DNA of 64,000 bases. Origin: Cyanobium usitatum str. Tous. GTDB lineage: Bacteria > Cyanobacteriota > Cyanobacteriia > PCC-6307 > Cyanobiaceae. Both the position numbers and the translations under genes were made by a program. Of this stretch, positions 33,707 to 52,367 are shown in pieces. Position 1 is the stretch's first letter; each line of letters opens with the position of its first letter. The stretch covers positions 1 through 64,000 of the forward strand of contig NZ_PXXO01000006.1 of assembly GCF_003011885.1 (NCBI RefSeq), in the 5' to 3' direction. The notes under the pieces were generated by a model, which saw only the letters and a program-made list of their open reading frames with translations, made no database searches and was not told the origin of the DNA.

Positions 33707-34126
33707 ATGGTCGCCTCCGCTGCCGAGCGTTTCACGCCGCCCCCCATCCCCTGGCGCCATTCCCTGGCGCTGGAGCTGGCTCCTGAGCTGGGTCCGGGGT
33801 TGGATCCCCAGAGGTCTGGGGAAGCCTTGGTGCGTCTTTGCGCCGAACCCGATGTGCAGGCGGTGATCGCCTTTGGTTCGCGGGCCAGGGGTGAGGCGCG
33901 CCCAGACTCAGATCTGGATCTTGCAGTGATCGTGGGCCAGCCCCAGCTCACGCCGGCCGAGAAGCTGGCCTGCTGGAAGCGCTTCAACCGAGCGCTGGGT
34001 CGGCAGGGAGTACCTGTCGACCTAGTGGTGGCGGGCAGCGCTGATGCCGAGCGCCTGAGCGGCTCCCGTTGGCATGTGTTCGGCGATGTGGCTCGTGAGG
34101 GCCGGGTGTTGTATGTCGCCCGCTGA
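33707..34126 (+). CDS. MNT-type nucleotidyltransferase (putative antitoxin of a HEPN/MNT pair)
   Basis: A minimal nucleotidyltransferase of 139 residues. The signature FGSRARGEARPDSDLDLAV matches the GS-x10-D-x-D pattern of pol-beta-type enzymes, and VPVDLVV supplies the third acidic residue. In known pairs such as MntA-HepT, this protein neutralises a HEPN RNase, by AMPylation in the best studied case. The ATG at 33707 is preceded by a short gap after the TSUP gene. The C-terminus overlaps the HEPN gene start by 14 bases. The HEPN partner is frameshifted, so the pair may be decaying. Confidence 0.85.
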   Translation: MVASAAERFTPPPIPWRHSLALELAPELGPGLDPQRSGEALVRLCAEPDVQAVIAFGSRARGEARPDSDLDLAVIVGQPQLTPAEKLACWKRFNRALGRQGVPVDLVVAGSADAERLSGSRWHVFGDVAREGRVLYVAR

Positions 34127-34497
34127 AGACGCGCTGCTGCTCCTGGCGATTGTGCGCCGCCATCTGCGCAGCCTGGGGCTGACCCTTGACCCTGCCTATC
34201 CAGAAGAAGACTGGGGTTTCACCGCCCAGCAAGCGGTGCAAAAAACTACTCAAGGCCTGGATAGTGCTGGCCGACCGGCGGCCGCCCCGGGTCCATGACC
34301 TCGAAGATCTGGTCGCTCTGGCTGGTCAGCAGCTTGACCCCCTTCTGCTTGAGCTGCAGGTGTTTGCGGTGGAGGCCCGCTCCGAGGAGGGGCCCTTCCC
34401 GCTCCCCGCACCGAGGCAGGAGCTGTTGGCACTGGTCGAGGCGGAGCTGGAGCGTTGTGAGCGGATTGTGGCGGAGCAGGGCGAATCGGCTGCCTGA
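34113..34497 (+). pseudogene. HEPN-domain protein (putative RNase toxin), frameshifted at an A6 tract
   Basis: The frame starting at ATG 34113 reads MSPAEDALLLLAIVRRHLRS and continues to FTAQQAVQK, the typical early HEPN block. At 34240-34245 six A residues break the frame, and this reading stops at 34298. Shifting by +1 at the run gives LLKAWIVLADRRPPRVHDLEDL, with the HEPN R-x4-6-H motif, and the frame then runs to 34497. Five A residues instead of six would restore about 128 residues in one frame. The truncated product lacks the catalytic motif. It could be a real mutation, a sequencing error in a homopolymer or a slippage-controlled gene. Confidence 0.75.
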
Positions 34498-48540: not shown

Positions 48541-49308
48541 TTAGTGAAACTCGGCTAAGTAGTGGGCCATAGCAGCCACCGACATCGGCCGGCTGAATAG
48601 GTTGCCCTGACCATGCTTATAGCCGTTCTGCACCAGCCAGGCGCGTTGAGAGTCGGTTTCGACCCCTTCAGCGGTACTTTCCAGTCCTAAATCGGCGCAG
48701 AGATTCTGGATTGTTTTTAGCAACTGGTTGCTGGGATTGCTACTGTCATCGATGCGCTCTACAAAGCTGCAATCAACCTTCACCGTGCGCACTGGATAGT
48801 TGTGGAGGCGGCTGAGCGAGGAATAACCCGTGCCGAAGTCGTCGATTGCGATGGCAACTCCCAGGCGGCGCAGGGAGTTGAGGAAGATTCCAAGTTCCGA
48901 GCCATTGTCATGTAAATAATCCTCGACCAGTTCTACTAGCAGCTGCCAATCTTTTGGCAAGGGGGTGGAGCGGATCAGTTGCAGCAACCGTTGGCGCTGG
49001 CCCTCACTTTCCAGCAGTAGGCCGGAGAGATTCACTGAGAGTTGCAGCGGCTGCCCTGGTGCAGCGCTTGCTAGTTCATGGCTGGCTTGGATTGCTTTCT
49101 GGATTATCTGAAGATCAAGTTCACCGCTGAGCCCGGCCAGGTGAGATATCGGCAAAAAATTATTGGGCAGCATCATTTCGCCGCTGTCGGTGCGCCAGCG
49201 CATCAGGCATTCCAGGCCTACAGGCTTGCCCGTGACGAGATCAACAATCGGTTGCAGGTAGGGGGTGATTTCGTTGCGTCGGATAGCGCGACGTAGATCG
49301 GTTTCCAC
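48541..49308 (-). CDS. EAL-domain c-di-GMP phosphodiesterase (3' part of a split GAF-GGDEF-EAL gene)
   Basis: An almost complete EAL domain of 255 residues. The EAL motif is altered to ECL (VGLECLMRW), but the catalytic and metal residues look intact: Asn of LSVNLSG, Glu of VELVED, Asp-Asp of IAIDDFGTGYSS, Lys of VKVDCSF, Glu of TAEGVET and Gln of GQGNLFSRPM. It should hydrolyse c-di-GMP. The GTG start at 49308 is internal to a longer reading frame. Upstream in frame are Q-H-Y-Q-V, the normal joint after a GGDEF domain, running back to a 7-A tract where the GAF/GGDEF frame is met. Separate translation of the EAL half is possible but not shown. Confidence 0.85.
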   Translation of the reverse strand: METDLRRAIRRNEITPYLQPIVDLVTGKPVGLECLMRWRTDSGEMMLPNNFLPISHLAGLSGELDLQIIQKAIQASHELASAAPGQPLQLSVNLSGLLLESEGQRQRLLQLIRSTPLPKDWQLLVELVEDYLHDNGSELGIFLNSLRRLGVAIAIDDFGTGYSSLSRLHNYPVRTVKVDCSFVERIDDSSNPSNQLLKTIQNLCADLGLESTAEGVETDSQRAWLVQNGYKHGQGNLFSRPMSVAAMAHYLAEFH

Positions 49309-49388
49309 TTGGTAGTGCTGCTGTGCCGCCAGTCGTGCGGGCAGATCGATGAAGTTGAAATTGCTGTTTTTGCTGCGATCGGTGATGG

Positions 49389-50399
49389 CTATGCGTTGGG
49401 CGATGCTGGCGTCAGAGAGTAGAGAATCAACATCGCTATAGTTTTTTTGAAGATTGCAATGCCCATGTTCATTCCCAGCTCTATGTCGCGGTCGTTTAGT
49501 TTTAATGGTGCCTCAAGGCTCGCCATGCATCTTTCTGCAACCGCTGTGATAGCACTTTCTTCTGAGAGTTGTGGTAGCACGATTGCTATCTCGTCATCTG
49601 AGAAGTAGGCGGTTGATGCTTGAGCAGGTAGACAGTCCCGTAGGCGCTCTAAGCCAGTTTGGATTAGGTTTTTCGCCGCAGCGCTCCCAATGGTGGCGCT
49701 GACGCGGGAATACTCCTTGAACTTGCAGCGCGCCAGTGCAAAGCAGGGTGGTTGATCTAGGCCTAGCAGCAGGCTCAGCATCTGCTGTAGCTGCTCCCGA
49801 TTCATTACTGGATTGATTTCACTAAGCAGCTGGATGCCTGGCTTGACCTGCCCATTTCCCCCTTGGGCCTGCAGTGCTAATTCGGCGGATTGCAGTAGGT
49901 GGGCTTCTCGCCGCAGTTCCATTTGGCTAACCACTTGGCGAGCCAGTCGCTCTAGGGAGGTGACCTGCTTAGGTGTAAGGGCCTTCGGTTCGATATCAAT
50001 GGCGCAAAGACTGCCCAATGCCATGCCGTTGGCGGCGATTAAGGGGAAGCCGGCATAAAAACGGATGCGAGGCTCACCTAATACAAGTGGATTATCGGCA
50101 AAGCGATCATCTTCAAGGGCGTCGTTTACAATTAAGGGCCGGCGCTGAACGATTGTGTGGCCGCAAAGCGAAATATTTCTGGGCGTTTCCTTGGGTGCGT
50201 CGTCGAGGCCAACGCAAGACTTAAACCACTGACGATTTTCGTCGATAAGGCTTATAACTCCTATTTTTGCGCCAGTAATATCTTGAACTAGGTGGGTGAT
50301 ATCGTCGAAGATTGCCTCAGATTGTGTATCAAGAACGCCGTAGCTATGCAGTTCCTTGAGGCGAGCCGAATCATCTTCGGGTATGGGCGCTTCTTGCAC
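49389..50399 (-). CDS. GAF domain protein with degenerate GGDEF (5' part of the split gene)
   Basis: Residues about 10-165 form a GAF domain (RLKELHSYGVLDTQSEAIFDDI...VISLIDENRQWFKSCVG...SLCGHTIVQRRPLIVNDA). After a linker, residues about 205-320 resemble a GGDEF domain, but the motif itself is lost: the region STAYFSDDEIAIVLPQ stands where RxGGDEF should be, so it is probably non-catalytic and may bind nucleotide or regulate. The frame reads GIAIFKK and, after the 7-A tract at 49442-49448, ends in an unrelated tail (TIAMLILYSLTPASPNA). The -1 frame instead continues as NYSDVDSLLSDASIAQRIAIT, a normal GGDEF C-terminus, into the EAL gene. Confidence 0.82.
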   Translation of the reverse strand: MQEAPIPEDDSARLKELHSYGVLDTQSEAIFDDITHLVQDITGAKIGVISLIDENRQWFKSCVGLDDAPKETPRNISLCGHTIVQRRPLIVNDALEDDRFADNPLVLGEPRIRFYAGFPLIAANGMALGSLCAIDIEPKALTPKQVTSLERLARQVVSQMELRREAHLLQSAELALQAQGGNGQVKPGIQLLSEINPVMNREQLQQMLSLLLGLDQPPCFALARCKFKEYSRVSATIGSAAAKNLIQTGLERLRDCLPAQASTAYFSDDEIAIVLPQLSEESAITAVAERCMASLEAPLKLNDRDIELGMNMGIAIFKKTIAMLILYSLTPASPNA

Positions 50400-50435: not shown

Positions 50436-52214
50436 TTAGCTGTTCGCATTTTGTCTAGCATGGCGTAGGTCCGCATCCGAGCGGGCTAGCAGGATATCGG
50501 GTTTGAGTTCATCCCCCTCCAGGCTGCTGATCCCAGTGGTGATGCTGGTGGGAACAAGTTCCTGCTTGCTTGCCAGCCTCAGCTGGCTTACAAGGGCTTG
50601 CAGCTCTTCAGCCATTTCATGGGCTGCAGCTCCATTGCAATCGGTGGCCACCACCACGAACTCATCCCCGCCGCTACGGAATAAGTGGTCGGTGATGCGC
50701 AGCCTTTGGCGTACCGCACTGGCCACTCGCTTCAGAACTAGGTCGCCGATTTCATGACCAAAGCGGTCGTTGATATCGGTGAGATTATCAATGTCGATGG
50801 TGATGCAGCTGAGGGCTTCGCCGGTGCGGCGGCAGCGTAGGCATTCCTCTTTTAGCCTTAAGAAGAGGACATTGCGATTGCCGCAGCCGGTGAGTATGTC
50901 GCTTGAGCTGACCTGTTCGAGTTCGTCGCGAGAGCGGCGTAGGGCCAGGTTTGTCTCTTGCAGATCAAAGGTCAGCAAACGCACTTGCTGGATTCTTTGG
51001 TTGATCAACAGCACCATTACGCGCAGTTCGTTGATCAGAGATGGGGCAAGAGTGCTCAGACCGTCTGGGCTAGTAAGCATCGGCTTCAGCAATTTATTGA
51101 TTTCGCGCTCAAACAATGCCCCAAGCGTCATGCTGGCGGCAGTGCCAAGCAATAGTGTGGTTAGAACGACAACCAGTAGCTGTGAGATTTGATCTTGCAT
51201 CCGTTTAACAAGTGTGCCTGCTGGCTGCACTACTTGAATCAATACGGATGGTTGACCTGGGCTGGCATGAAGTTGGCTGTAACTCCAGTAGCCATTTACC
51301 CATTTCCTCAGCCCGGCCATGGGTTGCTTGGAGATCAGCACCGCTAATTCGCGGGGATGCACATTGGCGCGTCCCCCATCGGTGTAGTCCTTGTCGAGCT
51401 GACTGAACAGTTCAGCATCGGAGCTGGTGCTGTTGCCATTGGCCTCGACACGTCGGTAGGCCACATCTCCGCCTGGTATTTCAGACCATGGTTTGGATGC
51501 GGCAACAGCCCGATTTACTACTTTTAGATTGTCAAGCTCCGCTTGCTGCATCGCCAGCACTAGCTGGTAGCCGGAGCTCATAGTGATGATTAGGGCTGGC
51601 ACGGTCATGGTGATCAGCACCAGTCCCACGATTAGCCCCCGCAATGAGATGCCATTGCCGTGCCCCTTGCGGTTTTGCAGCGCGCTGATCACCATGAACA
51701 GCACGAATGCAATTGTGGCGTTAAGGACCCCATTGACAACTTGTTTCAACGCGGTGACAGTCACGTTGCTGGGGTCTATTTGAAGTATTAGGCCATAAAA
51801 GATGGCTACCATGGGTGCTCCTAGCAGAAGCCAGTAGCTGATCGCCAGGGGGATAACTGCGCCAGTGCTTACTTGATCGTTGCGGCGGCTAAGGCGTTGT
51901 AGGCCGAGGGTTAGCCAGGTGATTTCGGCGCTGAAGATCACTACCGCCCAAGGATGGCCCCATGCTTTCCAGGTCACCAGGCTGGCGATGCAGCCCACCG
52001 GAATTACCCAGCCGGTGCGCCAGAGCAGCAAGGCCAGGATCGGCAGGATCGAGCCCAGTAGCACTTGGATGCCATAGAAGAGTGGCAGGGGCTGCAGGTT
52101 CAGCAGTACCGCCAGGCCTGCCGTAAGGGCCAGAACAAGTCCTTGCCTACGAGTTGGCGGCGCAAACAGCGCGCCCCACGGGGATGGGGCAGGGGAACCA
52201 GTTATCGATGCCAT
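50436..52214 (-). CDS. Membrane diguanylate cyclase (GGDEF)
   Basis: From ATG 52214 the product has 592 residues. The first third has several hydrophobic helices (LVLALTAGLAVLLNLQPLPLF, VLLGSILPILALLLWR), then a periplasmic-like stretch with GYWSYSQLHA. A membrane helix (LLVVVLTTLLLGTAASMTLGAL) and a HAMP-like linker lead to the GGDEF domain. The catalytic motif FRSGGDEFVVVATD is intact, and the inhibitory RxxD I-site (RITD) sits five residues before it. It should make c-di-GMP and be feedback-inhibited. It is divergent from the substrate-binding protein pair, with a 153-base intergenic region, and lies just upstream of the GAF gene. Confidence 0.9.
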   Translation of the reverse strand: MASITGSPAPSPWGALFAPPTRRQGLVLALTAGLAVLLNLQPLPLFYGIQVLLGSILPILALLLWRTGWVIPVGCIASLVTWKAWGHPWAVVIFSAEITWLTLGLQRLSRRNDQVSTGAVIPLAISYWLLLGAPMVAIFYGLILQIDPSNVTVTALKQVVNGVLNATIAFVLFMVISALQNRKGHGNGISLRGLIVGLVLITMTVPALIITMSSGYQLVLAMQQAELDNLKVVNRAVAASKPWSEIPGGDVAYRRVEANGNSTSSDAELFSQLDKDYTDGGRANVHPRELAVLISKQPMAGLRKWVNGYWSYSQLHASPGQPSVLIQVVQPAGTLVKRMQDQISQLLVVVLTTLLLGTAASMTLGALFEREINKLLKPMLTSPDGLSTLAPSLINELRVMVLLINQRIQQVRLLTFDLQETNLALRRSRDELEQVSSSDILTGCGNRNVLFLRLKEECLRCRRTGEALSCITIDIDNLTDINDRFGHEIGDLVLKRVASAVRQRLRITDHLFRSGGDEFVVVATDCNGAAAHEMAEELQALVSQLRLASKQELVPTSITTGISSLEGDELKPDILLARSDADLRHARQNANS

Positions 52215-52367
52215 TAGGTAAACGTAGTCGTAGTGTCTGTCAGGGTGCGAGATATGAAGTTTTTGGTAAGAAGCCAATCATTTCCTTAGACTCTCTTGGC
52301 GTTAAACCCCTTACTGGCTACCCCTTGGCCGGCATGAGTTTGTCGTTTCTTTCCTGGTTTTACGCCA

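Follow-up and report, generated by a model that had tools for sequence, protein, structure and literature searches.

In the GeneTack survey of disrupted open reading frames, programmed frameshifts require a conserved site, and singleton breaks that are validated by homologs are attributed to recent indels that make pseudogenes, or to sequencing errors (PMC3711429). Broken genes can also be rescued by slippage, e.g. tssM1 of Citrobacter rodentium, in which transcriptional slippage takes place on a poly-A tract of 11 residues and both products have been shown and are needed (PMC4256274). A ranking of the tetramers at which ribosomes are prone to shift, made in E. coli in the presence of a pseudoknot, has A_AAA as the weakest (PMC4066793).

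The gene considered here lies in the first 64 kb (64,000 nucleotides, hereafter the window) of the 172-kb contig C22 of Cyanobium usitatum str. Tous (G000), whose assembly comprises 2.5 Mb in 25 contigs. Matches to the photosystem reaction-centre family PF00124 mark the genome as cyanobacterial; of 14 control genomes, only Synechococcus elongatus is hit by this family. Its closest counterparts are the fused GAF-GGDEF-EAL proteins of the same genus (PF01590, PF00990, PF00563), which it resembles in domain order and sequence, in a degenerate GGDEF motif, in intact EAL motifs and in having a GGDEF gene as its neighbour. Unlike these fused orthologs, the copy described here is split by the loss of one base at the GGDEF-EAL junction. 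The break is found in one genome, at a frame site that is not conserved, and is confirmed by homologs and Pfam, all of which it has in common with the GeneTack singletons (PMC3711429); there is no essential difference from them. The species is represented by one genome, and comparisons were made with genomes of the same genus and family. The features discussed are collected in Table 1.

Table 1. Features of the split gene, its surroundings and the other frame-broken genes of contig C22 (window numbering unless C22 is given).
Feature	Position	Strand	Description	Basis
5' fragment	49389..50399	-	GAF and truncated degenerate GGDEF (SDDEI replacing GGDEF), 336 aa, short off-frame tail	ORF reading, Pfam
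A7 tract	49442..49448	-	point of frame change; A5-Y-AA-C in relatives	sequence, orthologs
3' fragment	48541..49449	-	-1 frame; linker and complete EAL domain, active-site motifs kept	Pfam, alignment
Stem GCGAUGUUG/CAGCAUCGC	49399..49436	-	starts 6 nt past the second AAA codon	folding energy
Upstream neighbour	50436..52277	-	613 aa, intact GGDEF domain (SGGDEF)	Pfam
HEPN-domain gene	34062-34497	+	frame-broken at A6, ~34240; one open frame in two relatives	
Amino-acid permease	C22 70500-72015		lesions at ~70,990: one base deleted at each of two sites 19 nt apart, both outside homopolymers	
gcvP (glycine decarboxylase P-protein), loci L269 and L273	C22 136388-139300		two frames, split at T6 (~137,258); T7 in G005	

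On the minus strand the site reads ...ATC TTC AAAAAAA C TAT AGC..., the tract appearing as T7 on the plus strand, where it is the only A/T run of at least seven in the window. The first frame runs from a GTG at 50399 to a TAG at 49389, with the unrelated tail ...FKKTIAMLILYSLTPASPNA beginning directly after the tract, as the initial annotation had correctly placed it in both coordinates and frame arithmetic. Past the tract the -1 frame reads KNYSDVDSLLSDASIAQRIA and then enters the EAL domain, ending at 48541. Pfam matches the first piece to GAF (28-157) and GGDEF (198-318, the match stopping at position 133 of the 161 in the model) and the second to EAL (50-288); the three domains thus follow in this order across two frames, with scores that exceed the curated cut-offs. 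All the EAL catalytic motifs (ECL, NLS, E, DDFG, KVD, AEG and GQG) are present in the alignment of the 3' fragment, and the degenerate GGDEF motif is common to all orthologs rather than peculiar to the split copy.

The uninterrupted reading frame that is absent here is present in orthologs from four same-genus genomes, in each of which a single open frame of 622-629 codons is found, with an EAL part 77-87% identical. It had been proposed that a -1 shift would join the two frames into one gene of normal domain order, and that orthologs should be compared for a fused gene; both Pfam and these four orthologs bear this out. Since the pieces match two halves of one such frame in four relatives, their match to one gene is far beyond chance. 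The ancestral gene encoded one GAF-degenerate GGDEF-EAL protein, probably a c-di-GMP phosphodiesterase. When genome contigs were searched with the EAL half, only distant EAL proteins were found among the matches listed, and a pattern scan across the junction in viral contigs gave no match.

All four same-genus orthologs read TTC AAA AAY AAC TAY at the site, i.e. A5-Y-AA-C, so the A7 was created by base loss and was not inherited as a slippery or contingency tract. The expectation that one more A would give the intact state is not borne out by the relatives, which carry a pyrimidine (A5-pyrimidine-AAC) and no longer A-tract. The family comparison covered ~38 homologs from 32 genomes; this copy alone has an EAL frame that opens at the tract, and the 30-odd more distant homologs have no A-run at the site. 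The options first listed for the break (an inactivating mutation, slippage, phase variation or a sequencing error) include the right answer, but the orthologs, being fused and lacking A7, speak against conserved slippage and against inheritance of a phase-variable tract. Instead of a built-in switch, the break is either a recent mutation of an ordinary kind or an error in base calling, and these two cannot be separated by sequence alone.

We place the probability that this private one-base loss is a real, young inactivating lesion at roughly one half. One base would have been lost in this genome alone, turning A5-Y-AA-C into A7-C and shifting the EAL half into another frame. The most economical course would be for the pyrimidine to have been deleted recently in one step, although a two-step route (Y mutating to A, and one A then dropping out) may be envisaged; the residue at the lesion varies across the family at large (N, G, R, C, Q, H, D), so that a lysine-bearing intermediate would be tolerated there. 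Translation would now yield GAF and a truncated GGDEF, with no EAL activity save for trace non-programmed slippage. We infer that living cells truly lack the base and that the truncated protein has no activity.

A real lesion is favoured by the fused same-genus orthologs with their AAA AAY AAC and by the private nature of the break, a single case against distant homologs without an A-run. It is also favoured by the accessory status of the gene, which is carried by 5/16 genomes of the genus, with other EAL and GGDEF genes remaining in this genome, and by true decay elsewhere in the genome, i.e. the permease deletions and a GGDEF copy with an in-frame TAG. A single event, real loss of the pyrimidine, separates this tract from that of the relatives, while a miscalled homopolymer would presuppose a change of Y to A. 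Photosystem reaction-centre genes (Photo_RC, PF00124, psbA/psbD family) are truncated by contig ends, as in short-read assemblies, some of which seldom miscount A7. Two observations point the other way: the gene shows no visible decay, and gcvP on the same contig is also split (T6 vs T7), which suggests homopolymer miscalls.

The first of these rests on private substitutions, counted separately for three close lineages. The split gene has 15 nonsynonymous and 42 synonymous private changes, a ratio below those of the intact relatives G001 (36.5/65.5) and G005 (39/80), and its 5' and 3' halves are alike in this pattern, both being still constrained as protein. No relaxation of constraint after the break is therefore seen, although a very recent event would not show any yet. 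With constraint kept in both halves and the EAL active site intact, the break would be recent, artefactual or tolerated. Regarded as a pseudogene formed by a recent inactivating indel, the locus has a private break with intact relatives, but not relaxed constraint.

The alternative that survives best is a base-calling or assembly error, by which the gene is whole in the organism and the assembled tract one base short. We consider it somewhat less probable than a real lesion, but homopolymer miscalls in this assembly must be treated as a serious rival, given the T6 of gcvP against T7. A survey of frame breaks was made over ~446 conserved genes against G005, using alignments with codon-position filters, from which antisense shadow frames and 5' extensions were removed by hand; contigs C22 and C1 supply most of the data behind the resulting rate of breaks. 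On C22, 4/~112 genes are broken mid-gene (the split EAL gene, the HEPN gene, the amino-acid permease and gcvP), versus none clearly so of ~286 non-mobile genes on C1. This excess has p ~0.006 by hand calculation, a post hoc value that is not to be leaned on. Three of the four broken C22 genes sit at A/T runs of 6-7, and the kept constraint and whole EAL site are likewise what an error would leave. The GeneTack survey, moreover, put most homolog-validated singleton frameshifts down to sequencing errors (PMC3711429).

The gcvP case matters because the gene is universal in the genus (16/16 genomes), yet the sole copy here is split; G001 has no indel relative to G005. Either the strain has lost glycine decarboxylase P-protein or the contig holds homopolymer miscalls. 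An error at the EAL tract is nonetheless made less probable by the ancestral A5-Y-AA, in which a homopolymer miscall requires an earlier substitution, and by the permease lesions, which lie outside homopolymers. The assembly is also not generally poor: 3/75 A/T runs of at least 6 in conserved genes coincide with a frame break (1/9 of those of 7), and of ~220 G/C runs of at least 6 none is truly frame-broken. The contig ends in photosystem genes suggest a short-read assembly but do not identify the platform.

The HEPN gene adjoins a nucleotidyltransferase gene (33707-34126). A transposase-like gene on C1 (163151-164002) has a one-base break relative to G005. Apparent splits in 535-aa and 175-aa frames of G005 proved to be shadow or upstream frames, and 5'-end shifts in spermidine synthase-, ndhH-, gcvH- and PfkB-like kinase genes (named by eye) precede the likely true starts.

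Recoding, in which ribosomal or transcriptional slippage at A7 would give a minor or regulated full-length protein beside the GAF-GGDEF fragment, is improbable. The tRNA-Lys on the second AAA can re-pair fully in the -1 frame (A_AAA tetramer), and both halves remain constrained. However, the zero frame is TTC_AAA_AAA_ACT, which has no X_XXZ_ZZN heptamer in phase, and A_AA.A is the weakest tetramer in the E. coli ranking (PMC4066793). The tract is missing from all relatives, where a programmed site is expected to be conserved (PMC3711429). A stem of 9 bp begins 6 nt downstream (z -2.2) and resembles a frameshift stimulator, but it is ordinary for the window; in relatives, inspection by eye shows it weaker or absent. 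In energy it ranks at the 19th percentile within the gene and at the 61st among other genes of the window, no stronger than typical coding sequence there. Broken genes are rescued by slippage elsewhere, as in Citrobacter tssM, and the likeness to tssM1 extends to a poly-A tract where the conserved C-terminal part leaves the frame (PMC4256274); seven A is short against the eleven there, and any full-length product of the split gene is hypothetical.

It is less probable still that the lineage tolerates one-base breaks in A/T runs generally (A7 in the EAL gene, T6 in gcvP, A6 in the HEPN gene) through frequent slippage of ribosome or RNA polymerase that yields full-length proteins. The zero frame of gcvP at its T6, U_UUU_UUG, is a canonical slippery heptamer in the right frame, and the three homopolymer breaks all fall on A/T runs and none on G/C runs.

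Phase variation, in which the length of the tract would toggle the EAL half within the population, is very improbable. A homopolymer does lie within a signalling gene, and G005 has another EAL gene split at G8, but the tract here is private and has just seven residues, and each of the close relatives has it interrupted (A5-Y-AA); no long simple repeat kept across relatives, of the kind expected of a contingency locus, was found at the site. That the two pieces are separate genes by design, with the EAL protein initiated independently, is the least credible reading: a GTG at 49308 lies just ahead of the Pfam EAL start, but it has no Shine-Dalgarno-like sequence, its codon is not a common start in 3/4 orthologs, no ATG, GTG or TTG occurs between it and the tract, and all homologs are fused.

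Were the lesion real, the strain would lack one probable c-di-GMP phosphodiesterase next to a cyclase that is intact, a small change in its signalling. In the case of an error, the record needs correcting, as does that of gcvP. Wider interest would attach to the locus only if cells bypass the three breaks in A/T runs.

The upstream neighbour is a diguanylate cyclase, and the C-terminal part of this GGDEF protein is found immediately upstream of the gene in 4/4 fused orthologs. Beyond the split gene and its neighbour, the rest of the genome holds three EAL genes and seven GGDEF genes or fragments. One of the GGDEF copies (L128, C1 279242-279544) is shortened, has an in-frame TAG and is probably a pseudogene. 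The EAL gene of G005 split at a G8 tract is a different GGDEF-EAL gene (contig C3 of that genome, 119401-121065), and its copy in the source genome, at C1 265000-266758, is intact.
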